Assembly (NCBI RefSeq): GCF_013407855.1
Contig: NZ_JACBZH010000001.1
Coordinates: 3,038,001-3,102,000 of the forward strand
Direction of reading: 5' to 3'
DNA length: 64,000 nt
Origin: Actinopolymorpha rutila
GTDB lineage: Bacteria > Actinomycetota > Actinomycetes > Propionibacteriales > Actinopolymorphaceae
Below are positions 4,508-34,348 of this stretch, in pieces. The notes below the pieces were generated by a model. The model was not told the origin of the DNA. It saw only the letters and a list, made by a program, of their open reading frames with translations, and ran no database searches. The translations under genes and the position numbers were made by a program. Every line of letters starts with the position of its first letter. Within the stretch, counting starts at the first letter, position 1.

Positions 4508-6400
4508 ATGGGAGCTCACTATGACGCGGCCGGATACGGGGGGATCAGGGTGAAGCGTGAGCTGAGAACTCTCGCCCGGCGGCCGGTTGTACTCGTCGGC
4601 CTGGACGGTGCTGCCTGGCTGCTTTCGATGGCGACGTTCGCCGCACTTCGGATGGATGTCGCGGAGGGAAACGGTCCCGTTCCGTGGGGCGGCGTGATCA
4701 CGCTCGGTCTGGCCGCGACCATGTTGGAGGCCGCTTTTGGCTGGGTGGTGCGTCTGCACCAGGGGCGCGCGACGATGGGCAGCTTCGAGGAGATGCTGCT
4801 GCTCGGCGGGGTGACCGGATCCGTCGGGATCGTCATCGTGATCGCCAACGCGGTAGCCTCCGAACCGCTCGTCCCGAGGTCGGTTCCGGTCGCAGCCTCC
4901 TTCATGACCTTTGCCCTGGTGGCCTGGTGGCGTGCCGGATGGCGGCGGTACCGGGAGATCGGAGGACGGAACCACGCTGACACCGGGAGCACGCCCGTTC
5001 TGATCTTCGGTGCCGGGGACGGTGGCAGCCAGCTTGTGGACTCGATGCTGCGGGACTCCAAGCGGACCTGGCGACCGGTCGGCCTGTTGGACGACGATCC
5101 GCACAAGCGATTCCGACGACTGCGCGGGGTACCTGTGCTGGGCACCTTCGGCGACCTTGCCGGCGTGGTCGCGCAGACCGGCTGCCGCAAGCTGGTGGTG
5201 GCGATCCCCAGCGCCGGTGCGCAGTTGATGCGTACGGTCGAGAGTCGCGCGACGGCCCTCGGCCTGGACCTCAAGGTTCTGCCCGGCGTCGCCGAGTTGC
5301 TCAACGGCCAGGTGGCGGTCTCGGACATGCGCAGCCTGGAGATGGGCGATCTGCTCGGCCGGCATCAGATCGACACCGACGTCGGTGCGGTGGCGGGTTA
5401 CCTCACCGGCCAGAGGGTTCTCGTCACCGGGGCGGGCGGCTCGATCGGGGCGGAGCTGTGCAGGCAGATCCACCGCTTCGCTCCCGCGCAGCTGATCATG
5501 CTGGACCGGGACGAGTCCGCCCTGCACGCCGTCCAACTGTCCATCCAGGGCAGGGCGATGCTGGACACCCCGGACGTCGTTCTGGCCGACATCAGGGACA
5601 CCCAGCAGATCCTCGACATCCTGGAGAAGCGGCGCCCCGAGGTGGTGTTCCACGCCGCGGCGCTCAAACACCTGCCCATGCTGGAGCAGTATCCGGCCGA
5701 GGCGGTCAAGACCAACGTGTGGGGGACGCTCGCGGTCCTCGACGCGGCGAAGGCCGCCGGCGTACGTCGTTTCGTCAACATCTCGACCGACAAGGCCGCG
5801 AATCCGGTCAGCGTGCTGGGCTACTCGAAAAGAATCGCCGAGGGGCTCACCGCCGCCGCCGCCCTGGACACAGGCGAGACGTTCCTCAGCGTCCGGTTCG
5901 GCAACGTGCTGGGAAGCAGGGGATCGGTCCTCACCGCATTCACTGCCCAGATAGCGGCCGGCGGCCCGGTGACGGTGACCGACCCCGAGGTCACCCGCTA
6001 CTTCATGACCGTGCAGGAAGCCGTGCAACTGGTCATCCAGGCGGCCGCGATCGGTGAGGCGGGCGAGGCGCTCGTCCTGGACATGGGCGCTCCGGTACAC
6101 ATCGACGACGTCGCCAGACGGTTGATCGAGATGTCCGGGCGACCTATCGAGGTCGTCTACACCGGACTCCGTCAGGGCGAGAAGGTGCACGAGGAACTCT
6201 TCGGCGCCGGCGAGCCCGACCGCCGGCCCGTTCATCCGTTGGTCTCACACATCGCGGTGCCGGCGGTGGAGCCGGCCACCGTCCAGGCCATCGACCTGTG
6301 GAGTGGTCCTGAGGCGGTGATGGAGACGCTGCGGGAGACCTGCGAGAAGATGAGTGCCGGCGTGAGCACGCGCTCCGTGCCGTCGTCGGTCAGCCGGTGA
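4508..6400 (+). CDS. Membrane nucleotide-sugar 4,6-dehydratase, PglF/CapD-like
   Basis: A 630-residue protein. Four hydrophobic segments occupy about residues 14-140, followed by a first Rossmann domain (VLIFGAGDGGSQLV, about 160) and a second SDR catalytic domain (VLVTGAGGSIGAELC, about 300). Long enzymes of this family (PglF, WbpM, CapD) dehydrate UDP-GlcNAc to the 4-keto-6-deoxy sugar at the inner membrane. The catalytic stretch reads SVLGYSKRIAE: the position four residues before Lys, usually Met or Tyr, is Leu. GGAGG at 4493-4497 supports the ATG at 4508. The 152-bp gap before it suggests its own promoter. Its end overlaps the opposing phosphoglycosyl transferase gene by 11 bp. Confidence 0.86.
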   Translation: MGAHYDAAGYGGIRVKRELRTLARRPVVLVGLDGAAWLLSMATFAALRMDVAEGNGPVPWGGVITLGLAATMLEAAFGWVVRLHQGRATMGSFEEMLLLGGVTGSVGIVIVIANAVASEPLVPRSVPVAASFMTFALVAWWRAGWRRYREIGGRNHADTGSTPVLIFGAGDGGSQLVDSMLRDSKRTWRPVGLLDDDPHKRFRRLRGVPVLGTFGDLAGVVAQTGCRKLVVAIPSAGAQLMRTVESRATALGLDLKVLPGVAELLNGQVAVSDMRSLEMGDLLGRHQIDTDVGAVAGYLTGQRVLVTGAGGSIGAELCRQIHRFAPAQLIMLDRDESALHAVQLSIQGRAMLDTPDVVLADIRDTQQILDILEKRRPEVVFHAAALKHLPMLEQYPAEAVKTNVWGTLAVLDAAKAAGVRRFVNISTDKAANPVSVLGYSKRIAEGLTAAAALDTGETFLSVRFGNVLGSRGSVLTAFTAQIAAGGPVTVTDPEVTRYFMTVQEAVQLVIQAAAIGEAGEALVLDMGAPVHIDDVARRLIEMSGRPIEVVYTGLRQGEKVHEELFGAGEPDRRPVHPLVSHIAVPAVEPATVQAIDLWSGPEAVMETLRETCEKMSAGVSTRSVPSSVSR

Positions 6401-6998
6401 GCACCGCGCGCACGGTCTGGGTGAGGATGCGGAGGTCCCCGGCAAAGCTTCGGCTCTCGACGTATGCCAGGTACATCTCGACCTTGCGGGGGAGTACGAC
6501 GTCGAGATAGTGGCTTTCGGGGTCGGCCGCCAGGGCGAGCTCAGCGGACTCTCGACGGTAGGCGATGGATGCCGGGTCGGTGATGCCGGGGCGCACGGAC
6601 AGGATGCGTTCGCGGGCTTCGGGCGGCCAGCACTCGACGTACTTCGGCACTTCCGGTCGTGGCCCGACCAGGCTCATGTCACCGGCGAGGACGTCGAGCA
6701 GCTGCGGAAGCTCGTCCAGCTTGGTGGCCCGTAGGACGCGGCCCAGGCGAGTGATTCGCGCGTCGGTGTCGGAGGTCACGGCCGGGCCGGCGGAACCGGG
6801 CCGGCGAACGCCGTCCGCCTCCCGCATGGTGCGGAACTTGTGGATGCGGAACCGCTCCCCGCCTTTCCCGACCCGCTCCTGGCGGAACATCGCCTGCCCG
6901 CCGTCCAGCCTGGCCGCGATGGTGAGGACGAGCAGCAAGGGAGAGGCTACGACGAGCATCGTCGCCGCAACGCTCAGGTCCAAAGTACGTTTGAGCAA
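6390..6998 (-). CDS. Small monotopic phosphoglycosyl transferase (PglC-like sugar transferase)
   Basis: At 202 residues this is the minimal PglC-type enzyme: one N-terminal hydrophobic re-entrant helix (LSVAATMLVVASPLLLVL) followed by the catalytic core. The family signatures are all visible: FRQERVGKGGERFRIHKFRTM, TRLGRVLRATKLDELPQL (catalytic Asp-Glu dyad) and GDMSLVGPRPE. Such enzymes move a sugar 1-phosphate from UDP to undecaprenyl phosphate, starting glycan assembly. With a DegT aminotransferase 12 bp upstream in the same operon and a PglF-like dehydratase opposite, a di-N-acetyl-bacillosamine-type substrate is likely, by analogy to pglFEDC. Confidence 0.87.
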   Translation of the reverse strand: MLKRTLDLSVAATMLVVASPLLLVLTIAARLDGGQAMFRQERVGKGGERFRIHKFRTMREADGVRRPGSAGPAVTSDTDARITRLGRVLRATKLDELPQLLDVLAGDMSLVGPRPEVPKYVECWPPEARERILSVRPGITDPASIAYRRESAELALAADPESHYLDVVLPRKVEMYLAYVESRSFAGDLRILTQTVRAVLTG

Positions 6999-7010
6999 CT
7001 TCGCTCCGGA

Positions 7011-8165
7011 TCACCGCAGGACGTCGTGGACCGTCCCGACCACCCGGTCGACGTCCTCGTCGGTCATCCCGGAGTACAACGGGATGCTCACCACCCGGTC
7101 GAACTCGCTGCTGGCGACCGGGAACATCTCGTCCCGCAGTCCGTACCGCTCGCGCCAGTACGAGTGCATGTGCAACGGAATGAAGTGGACGCTGCAGCAC
7201 ACCCCGCGGCGCGACATCTCCGCGATGAACTCGTTCCGGCCCAGCGAGGCGTCGGGCCAGAGCCGGACGACGAACAGGTGCCACGAGTGAACGTCACCGA
7301 CCGGCGCCTCCAGCGGCAGATCGAGCGGGAGATCGGCGAACGCGGCCCGATAACGCTCGGCGATCCGCTCGCGTCGCAGGTGCATCTTCTCGGCCCGGTC
7401 GAGTTGGACCAGCCCGATGGCAGCAGCAGTGTCGGTGAGGTTGTACTTGTATCCCGCTGCCGCGATGTTGTAACGCCAGGCGGGACGGTCGCTGCGGTAC
7501 CTGTCGAAAGCATTGCGGTCGATGCCGTGCAACCTGGTCATCCGGACGCGGTTCGCCAGGCCGCTGTCTCGGGTGACCAGCATCCCGCCCTCTCCCGTCG
7601 TGATCGTCTTCGTGGCATAGAAGCTGAAGACAGTCGCCGCACTGTGCCCGCCGCCGACGGGTATGCCCTCGCTCGCACTGGGAAACGCATGCGCCGCATC
7701 CTCGACGGCGTGCAGGTGATGCCGGGCGGTGAAGTCGTGAAGCTGAGACGGTGACATCGCCCTACCCGCGAAGTGGACCGGGAGAACGGCCCGCGTGTTT
7801 CCTGTGACCTTGCGCTCGGCGTCGGCCAGATCGAGATTGAGGGTCACCGGGTCGCTGTCGACGAACACGACCCTGGCACCCAGGTGAACGACGACCTCCG
7901 CGGTCGCGCTGAACGTCCACGTGGGCACAAGAACCTCGGCGCCGGGACCGATCCCGAGGGCCTCCAGTGCCAGATGCAGACCGGCGGTGGCGGAGTTCAG
8001 AGCGACCGCCTGCACACCGCCACCAAAGAGGGCGGCGAACCGGCGCTCGAATTCCTCGACGCGGGGTCCGCTGGACAACCAACCGGACCGCAGCGCGTCC
8101 GAGACCGCCTGGATCTCCTCCTCGCTTATGTCCGGTAGCGCGAAGGGGAGAGTGCGATCGGCCAT
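7011..8165 (-). CDS. DegT/DnrJ/EryC1 family sugar aminotransferase
   Basis: A 384-residue PLP-dependent aminotransferase for a 4-keto nucleotide sugar. The PLP lysine lies in FYATKTITTGEGGM, and VLVPTWTFSATAE and EDAAHAF are family landmarks. It would convert the product of the PglF-like dehydratase to the 4-amino sugar (PglE-like role), with glutamate as donor. The ATG at 8165 (MADRTLPFALPDI) has a GGGGG stretch upstream; an in-frame GTG at 8210 would add 15 residues that do not resemble family members. It leads a two-gene operon with the phosphoglycosyl transferase. Confidence 0.86.
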   Translation of the reverse strand: MADRTLPFALPDISEEEIQAVSDALRSGWLSSGPRVEEFERRFAALFGGGVQAVALNSATAGLHLALEALGIGPGAEVLVPTWTFSATAEVVVHLGARVVFVDSDPVTLNLDLADAERKVTGNTRAVLPVHFAGRAMSPSQLHDFTARHHLHAVEDAAHAFPSASEGIPVGGGHSAATVFSFYATKTITTGEGGMLVTRDSGLANRVRMTRLHGIDRNAFDRYRSDRPAWRYNIAAAGYKYNLTDTAAAIGLVQLDRAEKMHLRRERIAERYRAAFADLPLDLPLEAPVGDVHSWHLFVVRLWPDASLGRNEFIAEMSRRGVCCSVHFIPLHMHSYWRERYGLRDEMFPVASSEFDRVVSIPLYSGMTDEDVDRVVGTVHDVLR

Positions 8166-8467
8166 GCCAGCCCCCACGAAACGTTGTGAGCGAATAGGTG
8201 AAGAAGTCACGGTTCCCTGTGTTCGGTACGTTCCCCTTCCCGGAATACGGCTAATCAGAGACTGGTGAGAGTTCCCCCAACTCCACCGTTTCCTGTCTGG
8301 ATGGGCACCCGGCTCGTGGACGTTATGAAAATCTCACTCTGCGGTGCCGTGCCGACGGTCCGACAAGAATGCCCCTGATGTCCGTAATACTCGGGCACGT
8401 ACGGTTGGGCGCACCAGGATTCGCCCACGTTTCCAGCGCCGGCTGCGCGGCGGGTGAGGAGTTGTGC
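8166..8467. promoter_or_regulatory. Divergent promoter region between aminotransferase and capG-like gene
   Basis: About 300 bp without a gene, less GC-rich than its flanks. On the plus strand CCGACA (8360-8365) and TAATAC (8385-8390) are a possible -35/-10 pair for the capG-like gene, although the 19-bp spacer is long. GTGAGGAG just before the GTG at 8468 is a clear ribosome binding site. No leftward promoter could be assigned with confidence. Confidence 0.35.
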
Positions 8468-9610
8468 GTGAAGGTCATGACGGTTGTGGGAACGCGTCCG
8501 GAGATCATTCGACTTTCCCGGGTCATTCCTCGCCTGGACTCCGCGTTAGGTCACGTGCTCGTCCATACCGGCCAGAACTACGCCTATACATTGTCGGACA
8601 TATTCTTCGACGAGCTTCGGCTACGACGACCGGACCACTATCTCGGAGTCGACACCTCCACTTTGGGCCGGATGCTCGGTGACACGCTGGCCAAGGGCGA
8701 GGAGATTATCGTGGCCGAGAGGCCCGACGCCCTGTTGGTCCTCGGTGACACCAACAGTTCGATCGTGGCGCTGATAGCGAAGCGACTGCGTGTTCCGGTA
8801 TTCCACATGGAAGCCGGCAACCGGTGCTTCGACGAGAACGTGCCGGAGGAGACCAACCGTCGGCTCATCGACCACATCGCCGACTTCAATCTGGTCTACA
8901 CCGAGCATGCGAGGCGCAATCTTCTCGGCGAGGGCATCCATCCCCGACGTGTCCTCCTCACCGGCTCCCCGATGAAGGAGGTCCTCGACCACTACCGTCC
9001 GCGCGTCGAGGCGTCGACAGTGCTGGACCGCCTCGGCCTGACTGCCGGGGAGTTCTTCCTGGTGAGTGCCCACCGCGAGGAGAACGTGGACGACCCGCGG
9101 CGCTTGGGCGCACTCCTCGACTGCATCACCGGCCTTCGCGATGCCTGGGGCCTGCCGGTGGTCGTGTCCACCCATCCGCGGACGAGGAAGCGCATGGAAG
9201 CGCTCGACGACTGGTCGCCGCCGGAGCGGGTGAACTTCTGCGAGCCGTTCGGCTTCTTCGACTACATCAGCCTGCAACTGGCCGCGCGATGCGTCGTGTC
9301 CGACTCGGGAACCATCTCCGAGGAGGCGTCGATTCTGGGGTTTCCCGCGGTCACCCTGCGTACCTCCGTCGAAAGACCGGAGGCGCTCGACGCCGGCGCC
9401 GTCGTGACGGTCGGACTCGACTCCCGCACGATGCTCGCCGCTGTGGAACTGGTGACGTCGGGCTCGCAGAACACCGCGCCGAGCGCAGCCGTCCCGGAGT
9501 ATCTCGTGGACGACTGCTCGGAGCGGACTGTTCGTTTCATCCTGGGGACGACCCACGCGTACCACGAGATCACCGGCATCAGGGACGGGGCCGCCGACCA
9601 TCTCCGATAG
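8468..9610 (+). CDS. capG: CapG/FnlC-type UDP-N-acetyl-L-talosamine 2-epimerase
   Basis: A 380-residue non-hydrolysing UDP-GlcNAc 2-epimerase family protein. It shows GTRPEIIRLSRVIP at the N-terminus, HTGQNY, the block GNRCFDENVPEETNRRLIDH that distinguishes FnlC/CapG from plain WecB, and GTISEEASILGFPA in the C-terminal nucleotide-binding domain. In the characterised pathway it epimerises C2 of the CapF product to give UDP-N-acetyl-L-fucosamine, completing the set begun by the capE- and capF-like genes 6 kb upstream. GTG at 8468 with GAGGA eight bases upstream is the start; the upstream in-frame ATG at 8369 adds unrelated sequence. It is separated from capEF by the oppositely oriented aminotransferase/transferase operon. 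Confidence 0.87.
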   Translation: MKVMTVVGTRPEIIRLSRVIPRLDSALGHVLVHTGQNYAYTLSDIFFDELRLRRPDHYLGVDTSTLGRMLGDTLAKGEEIIVAERPDALLVLGDTNSSIVALIAKRLRVPVFHMEAGNRCFDENVPEETNRRLIDHIADFNLVYTEHARRNLLGEGIHPRRVLLTGSPMKEVLDHYRPRVEASTVLDRLGLTAGEFFLVSAHREENVDDPRRLGALLDCITGLRDAWGLPVVVSTHPRTRKRMEALDDWSPPERVNFCEPFGFFDYISLQLAARCVVSDSGTISEEASILGFPAVTLRTSVERPEALDAGAVVTVGLDSRTMLAAVELVTSGSQNTAPSAAVPEYLVDDCSERTVRFILGTTHAYHEITGIRDGAADHLR

Positions 9611-28538: not shown

Positions 28539-28745
28539 ATGATTCGAATTCGCGGCGACGAGCAAGCCGGTTACCACACGATGGTGACCTGCGACGAGTG
28601 CCAGACCAGCATGGTGTTCCGGCCGGACGACCACGGGCTGTGGGTCGGGTCGTCCCGCCAGGTGCGGATGTACCTCACCGACCACAAGGGCTGGGTCTGG
28701 GATCACGACTCCGACTCGTTCTACTGCCCGCAGCACTTTCGCTGA
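28539..28745 (+). CDS. Small conserved-looking Cys/His protein, function unknown
   Basis: A 68-residue acidic protein. CDEC near residue 17 and CPQH at the very C-terminus form a CxxC...CxxH arrangement that could hold one zinc ion; the middle is rich in Asp, Trp and Tyr (GLWVGSS, GWVWDHDSD). No signal peptide. It has no clear Shine-Dalgarno, but TAGTAT at 28523-28528 lies about ten bases before the ATG, as expected for a leaderless transcript. It sits alone between the ABC exporter and the MarR gene. The family is not recognised; reality of the gene is supported by codon usage and the Cys/His pattern. Confidence 0.6.
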   Translation: MIRIRGDEQAGYHTMVTCDECQTSMVFRPDDHGLWVGSSRQVRMYLTDHKGWVWDHDSDSFYCPQHFR

Positions 28746-28831
28746 GCGTTCACGCACCCGCCCGCTACGGTGGTCGCCAGTACGTCCCGCGGTCGCGTGG
28801 GCGCATTGTCCACTGCGCCGGGAGGACATGG

Positions 28832-29266
28832 GTGAGGACCGACGATCCGGTCGAGGCTGTCGAACGCGAGCTCGCGGTGTTGCTGCGCCGCGCCCGGTCG
28901 ACCTCGGGCACCATCGCCCGTGAGCTGCATCCCGACCTCGGTGCCGCGGCGTACGGCATCCTGTTCAACCTCCAGCAGACCGGCGGCGCCCGAACGACCG
29001 ACATCGCCGCCTACTTCGGCGTCGGCAAGCCCACCATCAGCCGTCAGGTCGGACTGCTGGAGCGCCTGGGCTTCGTCGAACGCGTCGAGGATCCCGGCGA
29101 CCGCCGGGCGGTGACGTTACGGCTCACCGACGAGGGCTCGGCGCGGCTGCTCGAGGCCCAGGAAGCCCGCAGGGCACGGTTGCGCGCGTCCCTGGACTCC
29201 TGGCAGAGCGAGGACCTGGAGACACTCGGCCGGCTGCTGCACCGGTTCAACGACCAACAGGTCTGA
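28832..29266 (+). CDS. MarR family transcriptional regulator
   Basis: A 144-residue winged-helix regulator. The recognition region reads RTTDIAAYFGVGKPTISRQVGLLERLGFVER, followed by the wing DPGDRRAVTLRLTDEG, both standard for MarR proteins. The GTG at 28832 is chosen because GGAGGAC lies five bases upstream; a nearby ATG at 28828 is out of frame. The target is unknown: candidates are the ABC exporter upstream or its own promoter. It converges with the ASCH gene. Confidence 0.87.
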   Translation: MRTDDPVEAVERELAVLLRRARSTSGTIARELHPDLGAAAYGILFNLQQTGGARTTDIAAYFGVGKPTISRQVGLLERLGFVERVEDPGDRRAVTLRLTDEGSARLLEAQEARRARLRASLDSWQSEDLETLGRLLHRFNDQQV

Positions 29267-29977: not shown

Positions 29978-30020
29978 GTTGCTTAGGGCAGCTAATAGGC
30001 ATATAGTTGCCCGGGGCAAC
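29978..30020 (+). promoter_or_regulatory. Promoter with two MarR-type operators for the marR-MFS-yceI operon
   Basis: TTGCTT (29979-29984) and TATAGT (30002-30007) separated by 17 bp make a strong vegetative promoter. Two copies of GTTGC-N5-GCARC overlap it: GTTGCTTAGGGCAGC at 29978-29992 on the -35, and the perfect GTTGCCCGGGGCAAC at 30006-30020 on the -10 and start site. Their centres are 28 bp apart. Sites of this form, adjacent to a marR gene followed by an MFS exporter, are the expected autorepression operators released by a ligand. Confidence 0.75.
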
Positions 30021-30033
30021 GATGGGGGTGAAC

Positions 30034-30624
30034 ATGGATGTGACCCGCACCCAGCTCGAGGAACTCATCCGGGCGATCCACGACGTGGTACTCATCCGCA
30101 AGGACATCTCGCGGCTGGCGGCGAGCAAGAGCTGCCACTTCGGCGCGCTCAGCGTGCTGGCCACGCTGGCGGCATCCGGTGACGCGAGGGTGAGCCAACT
30201 TGCCGAGACGCTGATGGTCGACGTGTCGGTCGCCAGCAGGCAGCTCGCCCAGTTGGAGGCTCACGGGTACGTCGGCCGCCGGGCGGATCCCGCGGACGGC
30301 AGGGCGCACCTGGTCTTCGTCACCGAGGCGGGGCGGCACGAGCTGGAGTCCGTTCGTTCGGACGTGGTCGACCACTTCGAGTCCGCACTGCACCGGTGGC
30401 AGGGCGCGGACGTCGACACCCTGACCTCGCAGCTGCGCCGGCTGCGGAGCGACCTCGGCCTGAGCCGGCCGGAGGCCCCGCCCGACGCCCAGGTTCAGCC
30501 CCCAGGCCCGAACCACTCCAGGGCCCGCTCCGGCCAGGCATCCGGCACGGACACCGAAGTCCGCGTCGGGCCCGATCACCCGAACCACCAGCAGCACCGC
30601 ACAGGAGTTGAAGCTCTCTCATGA
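30034..30624 (+). CDS. MarR family repressor of the MFS/YceI operon
   Basis: A 196-residue MarR protein. The DNA-binding part reads ARVSQLAETLMVDVSVASRQLAQLEAHGYV, then the wing DPADGRAHLVFVTEAG. After about residue 145 it has a disordered Pro/His-rich tail of about 50 residues that is unusual for the family. The ATG at 30034 has GGGGG five bases upstream. Two palindromic sites overlapping the promoter point to autorepression. The stop overlaps the MFS start (ATGA), so regulator and exporter are translated together. Confidence 0.87.
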   Translation: MDVTRTQLEELIRAIHDVVLIRKDISRLAASKSCHFGALSVLATLAASGDARVSQLAETLMVDVSVASRQLAQLEAHGYVGRRADPADGRAHLVFVTEAGRHELESVRSDVVDHFESALHRWQGADVDTLTSQLRRLRSDLGLSRPEAPPDAQVQPPGPNHSRARSGQASGTDTEVRVGPDHPNHQQHRTGVEALS

Positions 30625-33503
30625 CGACCCAGACCGCTCCGGCAGCTGCTCCGGCAGCCCCCGCGTCCGAGGGGATGACGCACCGGCAGGTTCTGGAGGC
30701 GTTGTCCGGCCTCCTACTCGGCATGCTCGTCACGATCCTGTCCTCGACCGTGGTGTCCACGGCGCTGCCGCGCATCGTCAGCGAGCTCGGCGGCAGCCAG
30801 TCCGCGTTCACCTGGGTCGTCACCGCGTCCCTGCTGGCGATGACGATCAGTACGCCTATCTGGGGCAAGCTCGCGGACCTGTTCAGCCGCAAGCTTCTGG
30901 TGCAGATCGCGCTGGTCGTGTTCGTCGTCGGCTCCGCGCTGGCAGGCCTGTCCCAGAACGTCGGCGAGCTGATCGGCCTGCGGGTCCTGCAGGGCCTGGG
31001 TGCCGGCGGCCTCACCGCGTTGTCGCAGGTCATCCTCGCCGACATCATCAGCCCCCGCGACCGCGGCCGCTACATGGGCTTCCTCGGCGCGACCATGGCC
31101 GTGGGCACCGTCGCCGGCCCGCTCATCGGTGGTGTGCTCACCGACTCCCCGCTGGGCTGGCGCTCGACCTTCTACGTGGGTGTGCCGTTCGCCGTGATCG
31201 CCATCGCCGTCCTGCAGAAGACGCTGCACCTGCCGCGCATCCGCCGCGAGGTGAGCATCGACTACGTGGGCGCGGTCCTGCTCAGCGCCGGCGTGGCGAC
31301 CCTGCTGATCTGGGTCACGCTGGCCGGCAACCAGTTCGACTGGGCCTCCAGGACCACCGCGGTCATGGTGGGCGGGGCCGTCGTGGTCCTGATCCTCGCC
31401 ATCGTGGCCGAGCACCGCGCGAAGGAACCCATCCTGCCGCTGTGGCTCTTCCGTAACCGCACGTTCGTGTTCGCGGTGATCGCCAGTGTCGCGGTCGGTG
31501 TGACGATGTTCGGCACCTCGGTGTTCCTCAGCCAGTACATGCAGATCGCCCGGGGCAAGTCGCCCACGGTCGCCGGTCTGATCAGCATCCCGATGGCGGT
31601 CGGCAGCCTCGTCGCCGGCACCGTGATCGGTCAGATCATCACCCGTACCGGCCGGTGGAAGCGCTGGATGGTGCTCGGTGGCGTGCTGCTGATCGCCGGT
31701 TCGGTGGCGATGGGCACGATCGACTACCACACCAGCTTCGCCCGGATCGGTGTCTCGCTGCTGCTCCTCGGTCTCGGCGTCGGCATGGTGATGCAGAACC
31801 TCGTGCTCGCCGTGCAGAACACCATCTCCATCAGGGAGATGGGCGCGGCCAGTGCGGGCGTGGCGTTCTTCCGGAGCATGGGCGGCGCGATCGGCGTCGC
31901 CGCGCTCGGCGCCGTCCTCGCCCACCAGGTGACCACCGACATCGCCTCCGGCCTGGCGCGGCTCGGCATCAAGGCGGCTCCCGGCGGTGACGCGGTGCCG
32001 GAGGTGGCGAAGCTGCCGCCGCCGGTGCGCGAGCTGGTGGAGAAGGCGTACGGCCAGGGCGTCGCCGACATCTTCATGGTCGCCGCACCGATCGCGGTGA
32101 TCGCGCTGATCGCGATCCTGTGCATCAAGGAGATCCCGCTCGGTACGAAGAGCGGCATCCAGCAGACCCTCGAGGCCGAGCGGCTCGCCGCGCAGGGCGT
32201 CCAGGGTGCTGAGGCCACGCTCGGCGGGCAGCCCGACGAGTCCGACCAGGTGCCCGTGCCGGTGTCGGCGGGCGAGAGGCTGGAGCCGGTCGGCATCCGG
32301 AACGGCAACGGCCACCCGGCCTCCGCCGGCTCCCGGCTCGCGGCCGACGCCGCCGACTGGGCCGGCATGGACGCCGACGGTGCGGGCGGCAAGACCGTCT
32401 CGCAGCGGGATCTGGAATCTCTTGTCGGCGTGGGTGGCCCGGGCAGGGAATGGCAGGCCAACGGCTCGCACCGGCTGGACAACGGCCGTCCCGAGAACGG
32501 CCGTCCCGAGAACGGCCGCCCCGGTTCGTCCGTACGTCCCGGCGTCTTTCCGCCCGCTCACCTGGCCCGCTCGCCCGAGGGGACCGGCGAGGGCGAGGCC
32601 GGGTACGGCCCCGGCGGCGACAACGGCCCCGGCGGCGACAACAGCCCCGGCGGTGACAACGGGTTCGGCGGCGGTGGCTTCGGCAACGGCGGTTCCGGTG
32701 GCGGTGACTTCGGCGGCTTCGGAGGCCGCCCCGCCGGACAGTCCGCCGCGGTCGTGGGTGTCGTCCGGCGTTCGGACGGAACCCCCGTCGCCAACGCGGC
32801 CCTGACGCTGATCAACCTCGGCGGCCACCAGGTCGGGCGTACGGCCAGCGGTTCCGACGGCCGCTACCAGCTCGCCGCCGACCCGGGAGGAACCTACGTC
32901 CTGATCGCGTCGGCACCGGCCAGCGAACCGCGCGCCTCGACGGTCTCCGTCGGCGAGACGCCGGTCACCGTCGACGTCGAGCTCTCCGGTGTCAGCGGGC
33001 TCGTCGGCGAGGTGCGCTCGGCCGAGTCCGGGCTTCCGGTCGCCCAGGCGGTCGCGGTGCTCACCGACGCTCGCGGTGAGGTGGTCGCCTCCCGCATCGC
33101 CGGAGCCGACGGCGGTTTCCGGTTCGACGACGTGGGTGCCGCGGCGTACACGCTGGCGGTACGGGCCGAGGGGTTCCAGCCGGTGGCGTTGCCGGTCAGC
33201 GTGGCCGAGCTCGGTGAGACCCGGCGCGACGTCGAACTCGTCGCCAAGGCAGCCCTGCGGGGGATCGCCCGCGACCGGCACGGCCGGACGCTGCGCGACG
33301 CACGGGTCACGCTGATCGACGCGAACGGCGACGTCGTACGCACCGTCTTCACCGGCGACGACGGCGGCTACGCTCTCGACGACCTCGCGGCCGGCGACTA
33401 CACCGTCGTGGCCACCGGCTACCCGGCGGTGACCAGCTCGGTGCGGCTCGGCGGTGGCGACGTCAGCGCCCACGACGTCGAGCTGGGCCACCCGGAGGTG
33501 TGA
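30621..33503 (+). CDS. DHA2-type 14-TM MFS exporter fused to three carboxypeptidase-regulatory-like domains
   Basis: A 960-residue protein. Residues 20-510 are a drug:H+ antiporter of the 14-helix (EmrB/QacA) family with GKLADLFSRK (motif A) and GLRVLQGLGAGGL. A low-complexity linker (about 515-705) contains three NGRPE units and three GPGGDN-like units. Then three beta-sandwich repeats of about 80 residues follow (about 708-957), each with a GxVR..DGTPVANAALTLI-like start and a GxYxLxDLxxGxYTVxAxG-like core, matching carboxypeptidase-regulatory-like domains. Fourteen helices with N-terminus inside place the tail in the cytoplasm, which is odd for such domains. It is coupled to marR upstream and followed closely by the yceI-type gene. 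Confidence 0.85.
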   Translation: MTTQTAPAAAPAAPASEGMTHRQVLEALSGLLLGMLVTILSSTVVSTALPRIVSELGGSQSAFTWVVTASLLAMTISTPIWGKLADLFSRKLLVQIALVVFVVGSALAGLSQNVGELIGLRVLQGLGAGGLTALSQVILADIISPRDRGRYMGFLGATMAVGTVAGPLIGGVLTDSPLGWRSTFYVGVPFAVIAIAVLQKTLHLPRIRREVSIDYVGAVLLSAGVATLLIWVTLAGNQFDWASRTTAVMVGGAVVVLILAIVAEHRAKEPILPLWLFRNRTFVFAVIASVAVGVTMFGTSVFLSQYMQIARGKSPTVAGLISIPMAVGSLVAGTVIGQIITRTGRWKRWMVLGGVLLIAGSVAMGTIDYHTSFARIGVSLLLLGLGVGMVMQNLVLAVQNTISIREMGAASAGVAFFRSMGGAIGVAALGAVLAHQVTTDIASGLARLGIKAAPGGDAVPEVAKLPPPVRELVEKAYGQGVADIFMVAAPIAVIALIAILCIKEIPLGTKSGIQQTLEAERLAAQGVQGAEATLGGQPDESDQVPVPVSAGERLEPVGIRNGNGHPASAGSRLAADAADWAGMDADGAGGKTVSQRDLESLVGVGGPGREWQANGSHRLDNGRPENGRPENGRPGSSVRPGVFPPAHLARSPEGTGEGEAGYGPGGDNGPGGDNSPGGDNGFGGGGFGNGGSGGGDFGGFGGRPAGQSAAVVGVVRRSDGTPVANAALTLINLGGHQVGRTASGSDGRYQLAADPGGTYVLIASAPASEPRASTVSVGETPVTVDVELSGVSGLVGEVRSAESGLPVAQAVAVLTDARGEVVASRIAGADGGFRFDDVGAAAYTLAVRAEGFQPVALPVSVAELGETRRDVELVAKAALRGIARDRHGRTLRDARVTLIDANGDVVRTVFTGDDGGYALDDLAAGDYTVVATGYPAVTSSVRLGGGDVSAHDVELGHPEV
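32481..32660 (+). repeat. In-gene tandem repeats of the MFS linker
   Basis: Three 15-bp units of aacggccgtcccgag type run from 32481 to 32525 (coding NGRPE) and three 18-bp units of ggccccggcggcgacaac type run from 32607 to 32660 (coding GPGGDN). Such repeats can change copy number by slippage and so vary linker length. Confidence 0.85.
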
Positions 33504-33511
33504 GGAGCCGC

Positions 33512-34348
33512 ATGCGAACGCACTCAGAGGACCGCCCCGTGCTCACCGCGGACCTGCGTACGCCCGACGGCTGGCCGGTACCCCACGGCGTCGTCACGGT
33601 GACCGACCTGCGCGGCCAGCAGGTGGCCCGGGCCGAGGCCGACGACGAGGGCGCTGTCGTCACCAGGCCGCTGCCGGCCGGGACCTACACCGCCATCGTC
33701 ACCGCGGCCGGGCACACCCCGACCGCGCGGACCGTCGTCGTCGGCGGCAGCGGCGCCACACTCGGTGTGGTGACGCTGCCGCGGACGGGCGGCATGCCGC
33801 TGCCGGCGGAGGGTCCGTGGGTGATCGACCCGGACCACTCCAACGTCGAGGCGACCGCGCGGCACCTGGGCTTCTCCAGCGTCAAGGGGCGGTTCACCCA
33901 CTTCGGCGGCCGGATCCACATCGCCCGGCCGATCGAGGAGTCCCGGGTCCACGCCGTCATCACCGCCGACAGCATCGAGACCGGCAACAAGATGCGCGAC
34001 GACCACCTGCGTACGCCCGACTTCCTGGACGTCGCGCGCCATCCGACGATCGAGTTCCGCAGCGAGCGGCTGTCCGCGACCGGTGAGAACCGCTGGACGA
34101 TGGACGGCACGCTCACCATCAACGCGATCAACCGGCCGGTGAGCCTGGACCTGCGCTACCTCGGCGCGGGTCCGGACACCTTCGGTGGCGTGCGGGCCGG
34201 CTTCTGGGCCACCACCGAGCTGAAGCGGGACGACTTCGCGATCAGCTACAACCAGTTGGTACGAGCCGGCGTCGCGGCGGTCGGCGCGACGATCCGGGTG
34301 GAGCTGAACATCCAGGCCGTGCAGGGCGAGGAGCTCCCGTCGTTCTGA
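33512..34348 (+). CDS. YceI family protein with an N-terminal carboxypeptidase-regulatory-like domain
   Basis: A 278-residue protein. Residues 10-90 form a beta domain (TPDGWPVPHGVVTVTD, LPAGTYTAIVTAAGH) like those in the tail of the upstream transporter. Residues 100-275 are a YceI lipocalin-like barrel: WVIDPDHSNVEATARHLGFSSVKGRF, TADSIETGNKMRDDHLRTPDFLDV, HPTIEFRSERL and LTINAINRPVSLDL. YceI barrels bind polyisoprenoids or other long lipophilic molecules. No signal peptide is seen, unlike secreted E. coli YceI, so this one is probably cytoplasmic. The ATG at 33512 has GAGGAG upstream, only 8 bp after the transporter stop. Confidence 0.86.
   Translation: MRTHSEDRPVLTADLRTPDGWPVPHGVVTVTDLRGQQVARAEADDEGAVVTRPLPAGTYTAIVTAAGHTPTARTVVVGGSGATLGVVTLPRTGGMPLPAEGPWVIDPDHSNVEATARHLGFSSVKGRFTHFGGRIHIARPIEESRVHAVITADSIETGNKMRDDHLRTPDFLDVARHPTIEFRSERLSATGENRWTMDGTLTINAINRPVSLDLRYLGAGPDTFGGVRAGFWATTELKRDDFAISYNQLVRAGVAAVGATIRVELNIQAVQGEELPSF

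Follow-up and report, generated by a model that had tools for sequence, protein, structure and literature searches.

The window, a 64,000-nucleotide stretch of the 6.95 Mb genome of Actinopolymorpha rutila, carries three consecutive genes for a MarR-family regulator, an MFS exporter with a long C-terminal tail and a YceI protein, which lie on the same strand with a 4-nt overlap at each junction and so form one operon (Table 1). The first-pass annotation had described a marR-MFS-yceI operon; its coordinates and gene order were right, and each domain that it named was confirmed by Pfam. Translation of the exporter and YceI genes is likely to be coupled through the GTGA overlap. A second MarR-family gene is located upstream of the operon at 28598-29266, and MarR-like neighbours at a similar place were seen in loci L038, L042, L043 and L045.

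Table 1. Features of the operon, in window coordinates (CRD, CarboxypepD_reg domain, PF13620)
Feature	Position	Strand	Evidence and remarks
MarR-family regulator, first gene of the operon	30007..30624	+	PF01047 3.6e-12; alternative starts 30022 or 30034 possible
DHA2-type MFS exporter with C-terminal tail, 960 aa	30621..33503	+	PF07690 3.8e-49; PF13620 x3
14 transmembrane helices, residues 21-500	30681..32120	+	AlphaFold2 model, pLDDT mostly >85; family hydropathy profile
Linker, mostly disordered, Gly/Pro-rich	32121..32735	+	pLDDT <50 at 535-705
Tail CRD 1 (T1)	32739..32990	+	PF13620; position-sorted on the CRD tree, 77 systems
Tail CRD 2 (T2)	32991..33236	+	PF13620; model strands 792-868
Tail CRD 3 (T3)	33237..33491	+	PF13620; model strands 871-955
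GTGA, exporter stop/YceI start overlap	33500..33503	+	Coordinates; identical overlap in L038, L040
CRD-YceI protein, 282 aa, no visible signal peptide	33500..34348	+	PF04264 2.7e-41; PF13620 2.8e-8; model pLDDT 90
CRD of the YceI protein (Y)	33542..33793	+	PF13620, model; GxQxxR in 77/77 systems; W25 in 96%
YceI (bacterial lipocalin-like) barrel	33818..34318	+	Foldseek and sequence profile matches to solved YceI structures

In Pfam the exporter matched MFS_1 and, over three stretches, CarboxypepD_reg (2.4e-34, 118 bits). Its score against TIGR00711 for the DHA2 subfamily, 227.6 bits, was just under the cut-off of 230.2, which was exceeded by four of eight relatives (L067, L108, L101 and L047) and not reached by the other four (L050, L055, L063 and L126); the models nearest to the window exporter were those of Tcr3, OtrB and EmrB. 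An AlphaFold2 model built from 40 rows (mean pLDDT 78) placed 14 helices of at least 15 residues between residues 21 and 500, which together with the PF07690 match identified the 14-helix MFS fold of DHA2 exporters. The helices are followed in the model by the unstructured linker and by three ordered beta domains at 709-955 with pLDDT mostly around 90. About 460 residues thus come after helix 14, some 250 of them in folded domains, in agreement with the earlier description of a 14-helix exporter with a tail of about 450 residues ending in three CRDs. The length of the linker ranged from 41 to 206 residues among 77 systems, a set used for all such comparisons and omitting L069 (contig end), L086 (frame-broken) and L116 (no pump).

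Mean hydropathy over the 77 systems gave 13 peaks above the threshold, helix 2 falling slightly short of it. A motif-A-like loop follows helix 2 at about residues 82-92, and since we take such a loop to mark the cytoplasmic side, the exporter would end inside the cell. An independent topology clue came from L116 (Actinocatenispora comari), where the gene upstream of CRD-YceI, located within 6754-8813 and overlapping it, encodes one hydrophobic helix, RRARR and three CRDs instead of an exporter. No exporter stands directly upstream of this gene, the next frame further upstream resembling a GGDEF protein by eye. The order of helix and RRARR hints at a tail inside the cell as well. The even helix number and the inward C-end that had been proposed for the exporter, and with them the cytoplasmic tail, are accordingly supported by prediction only. 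The accompanying remark on the rarity of such folds in the cytoplasm was overstated: DUF1416 matches the tail, an intradiol dioxygenase gives a sub-cut-off match to CarboxypepD_reg, and proteins of both kinds are soluble and cytoplasmic. A tail and YceI protein lying outside the membrane and shuttling lipid, like LprG with Rv1410, would have a precedent, since the known pair of MFS exporter and lipid protein uses an outside partner according to the accessible part of the report (PMC10576003); such an arrangement is scarcely credible here, because the helix count of 14, the loop resembling motif A and the positively charged residues that follow the L116 anchor place the tail inside and the YceI protein shows neither a visible signal peptide nor a lipobox.

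Both the family score (PF04264, 141.9 bits against a cut-off of 23.7) and the lipocalin-like barrel fold identified the downstream protein as YceI. It begins with one CRD, as the first reading had it, the PF13620 score of 34.4 bits being marginally above the cut-off of 32.3. Foldseek searches with the CRD-YceI model (46 rows) returned 7bwl ('antibiotic sequester') as the best match to the barrel (4.3e-18), with E. coli YceI (1y0g) and the polyisoprenoid-binding TT1927b (1wub) among the nearest folds, all three at TMt values of 0.88-0.92; 5ixg and 5ixh of the BcnA/BcnB type were also found, and sequence profile matches led to the same three entries. The roughly 14 residues before the CRD contain no hydrophobic stretch, consistent with the absence of a signal peptide noted before, and several relatives begin directly with the CRD. 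Long YceI frames that might have represented pump-YceI gene fusions (e.g., 1185 aa in L051, 1200 aa in L060) were rejected as high-GC open frames, in another frame over the exporter gene. In the accessible parts of the published reports, the YceI lipocalin BcnA binds hydrophobic antibiotics, BcnA and BcnB were crystallised with octaprenyl pyrophosphate (PMC5350466), and a Marinobacter yceI raises pinene tolerance (PMC4596283). The YceI proteins described in those parts are secreted or thought to be periplasmic rather than cytoplasmic (PMC5350466, PMC4596283), from which the predicted cytoplasmic site beside a pump sets CRD-YceI apart.

Contigs were scanned with eight CRD-YceI query proteins and the best 80 of 578 matches were kept, comprising 17 genus names, one of which (Frankia) is a misreading for Nocardia alni, and five loci without a name. 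An exporter ORF was found less than 700 nt upstream on the same strand in 75 of these best 80 loci. The five others are L095, cut at a contig end; L097 and L119, which are cut by contig ends and yet retain a CRD tail upstream; L116, with its single-helix anchor and three CRDs in place of the pump; and L127, a remote-type CRD-YceI beside frames that by eye resemble ComEC and N-acetyltransferase genes. The 8-9 best candidates of each of 296 genomes of the class were scored, and CRD-YceI proteins with E <1e-65 and a match starting at query residue 19 or earlier were regarded as the close type. Among the matches listed, a tail match was present in 38 of the 296 genomes, weak ones (e.g., in G137) possibly representing another kind of tail. 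All 25 close-type CRD-YceI genes listed for these genomes, including the window's own copy, lie next to a tail on the same strand, at most ~420 nt away, while none of the 12 listed remote full-length CRD-YceI (37-45%) does, nor do any of the 21 YceI-only places listed in tail-bearing genomes. The pairing of tail and YceI is far beyond chance, and the gene pair is confirmed as real, recurrent and specific; the co-occurrence of the two architectures as neighbours, which the first-pass annotation had put forward for checking, thus holds across many genera. As to plasmids, 54 records matched query P0002, 10 of them over at least 80% of it, and the best of the 20 listed was only 43% identical, so no close type was seen on plasmids among these. 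A second candidate for a single-helix anchor, in G086 (L180, L156), was dropped because its frame is cut by the end of the stretch and begins with the last MFS-like helix. No paper on the pair of tailed exporter and CRD-YceI appeared among the matches listed in a literature search of papers outside subscription.

The number of CRDs is strictly kept. Using a profile built from these same proteins, exactly three CRDs were counted in 79 of 80 tails, the 80th (L086) being frame-broken, and exactly one in all 84 YceI proteins. On a FastTree tree of the 308 CRDs of the 77 systems, calculated from few columns, T1, T2, T3 and Y separated with three changes, the minimum. Such sorting by position suggests that the 3+1 set was probably assembled a single time and not mixed by conversion. 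A GxQxxR motif occurs in T1 (75/77) as well as in every Y, in neither T2 nor T3, and in 2 of 13 remote CRD-YceI proteins; its sharing by T1 and Y is a hint that Y arose from T1 or imitates it. As a signature of YceI docking the motif was ruled out, since 15 of 16 unpaired tails have it too and it is therefore no marker of pairing. Position 25, usually W in close-type Y, is most commonly E in remote CRD-YceI.

Spearman correlation of pairwise identities over the 77 systems was 0.84 between tail and barrel, and 0.47 between exporter (MFS) part and tail, although the latter two share one polypeptide. The two operons of Streptacidiphilus fuscans (L052 and L053) encode pumps that are 44% identical, tails that are 82% identical and barrels or whole YceI proteins that are 98-99% identical, with unlike linkers and the change in identity at the linker/tail border; between L050 and L063 the corresponding values are 27% for exporter, 66% for tail and 80% for barrel. 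In AU tests on the exporter tree, with clades chosen after the identities were known, grouping in one clade was rejected for the 11 Nocardia-titled rows (p 1.7e-7), which are grouped on the tail+YceI tree, as well as for L052 and L053 (p 5.2e-6). When exporters were divided into eight classes, cut at 50% mean identity, 10 class changes were counted on the tail+YceI tree, 11 on YceI alone and 11 on the tail alone, against a minimum of 7, a count of exchanges that depends on the classes. The exporters are also nearest to different DHA2 models, namely OtrB/Tcr3 (L108, L047), EmrB followed by LmrA/TcmA (L067) or EmrB only (L050, L126), mostly with scores under the curated cut-offs. Judged from these sequence comparisons, pumps are exchanged while tail and YceI stay together, pump co-descent being rejected by the AU tests, and the conserved unit is the tail with CRD-YceI, reused with different DHA2 pumps. 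This is the stronger finding and new here; it had escaped the first-pass annotation.

Because yceI lies downstream of the tail on the DNA, linkage may explain part of the joint inheritance. Taken as the whole explanation, recombination in the linker would move everything downstream, and tail and yceI would travel without joint function, which fits the L052/L053 breakpoint at the linker/tail border with yceI included, the overlap or close spacing of the two on DNA and a case in which yceI is missing beside a kept tail (L047). This reading is highly improbable, as it leaves unexplained the location of the close CRD-YceI genes at a tail in all 25 cases listed for the 296 genomes, the L116 anchor and tail with their overlapping CRD-YceI, and the very presence of a CRD on YceI. 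That the close type was not seen apart from the tail, together with the single-helix anchor, argues for a functional unit.

Neither element is strictly tied to the other, since tails occur without CRD-YceI and remote CRD-YceI without tails. Among the matches listed, 13 of the 38 tail-bearing genomes are devoid of a close-type CRD-YceI, 12 having no full-length CRD-YceI and one the remote type only. Sixteen of 117 distinct tails examined were unpaired, in a sample rich in pairs for which many loci had been drawn by YceI. The window's own genome bears a second tailed exporter (L047 5972-8830; 6.48 Mb), OtrB-like and lacking an adjacent yceI. Its counterparts in two genomes of the genus, L039 (G003) and L041 (G005), have exporter parts 84% and 81% identical to its own and do adjoin a CRD-YceI, so that pump and tail can persist where the partner gene is lacking. 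The window's CRD-YceI might serve both tailed pumps of its genome. In L041, the yceI of the second G005 operon (5900-7000) is frame-broken in the assembly. Another tailed exporter with three CRDs (L205 4824-8051) is fused at its C-end to DUF1622 and has no adjoining CRD-YceI.

Remote CRD-YceI proteins of Streptomyces share the CRD-YceI architecture with the close type (36-47% identity) and differ from it in having no adjoining tailed pump (0/12) and, in all but two of 13, no GxQxxR. No three-CRD frame was found in L186-L197, the loci of the 12 remote CRD-YceI genes. The remote gene is located just downstream of a ComEC-like competence gene in L187, L189 and L192, next to an N-acetyltransferase gene in L197, and directly after genes for an FAD hydroxylase, a catechol dioxygenase and an Fe-alcohol dehydrogenase, an aromatic-degradation setting, in L191 (2486-7277).

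Unpaired tails bear on a regulatory reading, in which the role of the three CRDs is to gate the pump or to cluster it, and CRD-YceI acts as a sensor that, once loaded with ligand, alters the activity or assembly of the pump and delivers no substrate. Tails without CRD-YceI imply that the tail must act alone, and one tail common to pumps of different DHA2 types would suit a general regulator; a tail also sits on the single-helix anchor of L116 with no pump directly upstream. A pair that includes a lipocalin-like barrel, on the other hand, suits carrier and sensor equally and nothing specific for sensing was seen in it, and we consider this reading rather unlikely.

A MarR-like gene neighbours the MFS or YceI gene in 49 of the best 80 of 578 loci; beside the pair in the other 31, some of them truncated at contig ends, none was found. 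Sixteen Actinomadura loci carry a gene whose matches are TetR-like (one member scanned). MarR- or TetR-like genes are usual for efflux operons. This regulation would also agree with scavenging and efflux side by side, in which YceI binds a toxic lipophile in the cytoplasm, the pump exports compounds of that class, and the CRDs reflect common descent or a joint location at the membrane, with no hand-over; the occurrence of remote CRD-YceI without a tailed pump points the same way, as does the sequestering of hydrophobic antibiotics by BcnA-type YceI proteins, as far as the accessible text goes (PMC5350466). More than co-regulation is suggested by the strictness of the 3+1 count and by the persistence of the tail-YceI unit when pumps are exchanged, and a mere side-by-side action is distinctly unlikely.

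Other neighbours were seen in single genera. A member of an F420-dependent PPOX oxidoreductase cluster (TIGR03618 in the only gene scanned) lies at most 170 nt downstream of yceI in 10 Streptomyces loci (e.g., L054 8858-9328), and a DedA-like gene (one member of the cluster scanned, below curated cut-offs) lies 120-576 nt downstream in seven Amycolatopsis loci (e.g., L083 9027-9620). The DedA family includes undecaprenyl phosphate transporters. Since each of the two was seen at this position in a single genus, they were dropped as substrate clues.

Among known systems, the DHA2 drug exporters OtrB, Tcr3, TcmA, LmrA and EmrB are nearest to the transporter part. Models of DHA2 drug exporters, at 484-563 aa, leave no room for a tail, and the scores obtained here are far under the curated cut-offs of the named drug pump models. 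In the usual view, MFS pumps pick up their substrates directly from the cytoplasm or the membrane. The fold of LprG, the partner of mycobacterial Rv1410, differs from the YceI barrel, and we know of no CRDs on Rv1410, LprG or BcnA. As described in the accessible parts of two reports (PMC10576003, PMC4709180), Rv1410-LprG likewise combines an MFS exporter and a lipid-handling partner for lipophilic cargo; LprG is a periplasmic lipoprotein, whereas the partner here is a YceI barrel without a visible signal peptide. BcnA/BcnB and the BcnA-LcoA system involve the same barrel family, which in the accessible text binds hydrophobic antibiotics and octaprenyl pyrophosphate (PMC5350466). BcnA is secreted, and the linked upstream gene encodes a cytochrome b561, not a pump, in the available part of a further report (PMC9113575), while the upstream neighbour here is an MFS exporter, in the window as in 75 of the best 80 of 578 loci.

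The first-pass annotation had proposed that a cytoplasmic lipid carrier docks on the transporter tail and hands over a lipophilic substrate under MarR control. Its interpretation is partly supported, and docking is the most likely reading, with about an even chance of being correct. Extended by the exchange of pumps, it would describe an efflux system under MarR control whose substrate-binding partner is cytoplasmic, with tail and lipophile-binding YceI forming a portable cassette for DHA2 pumps, a proposal that we hold to be as probable as not. The DHA2 pump would end inside the cell, its flexible linker and three CRDs making a membrane-tethered scaffold. The YceI barrel would bind a lipophilic compound in the cytoplasm or at the inner leaflet, candidates being a toxic hydrophobic metabolite, a quinone- or prenyl-like lipid or a drug, and its own CRD would keep YceI at the pump tail, from where the ligand would be loaded into the pump. 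Joined to different DHA2 pumps, the cassette would leave the substrate range to be set by pump and barrel together, and MarR might sense the ligand of YceI. CRD-CRD docking, the ligand, the hand-over and the sensing of the same ligand by MarR are what we infer. Weighing against the proposal are the unpaired tails, the remote CRD-YceI without a tail, the 31 loci in which no MarR-like gene was found, the possible effect of linkage and the secreted or supposedly periplasmic site of the YceI proteins in the accessible text. A dedicated loading cassette, made up of a receptor of three CRDs on a linker tether and a lipocalin-like carrier that bears a CRD tag and brings lipophilic cargo from the cytoplasm, grafted onto different DHA2 pumps and once onto a bare membrane anchor, is possible and is put forward tentatively.

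The pair is spread over many soil actinobacteria and offers natural contrasts, including tails with and without a partner, a genome in which two pumps have almost the same cassette, and a genus in which one pump occurs with and without its yceI. If the proposal is true, a cytoplasmic carrier that stays with the tail through pump exchange would add an extra layer of substrate delivery to drug-type efflux, and would give a testable role to one branch of the YceI family, whose function is largely unknown.
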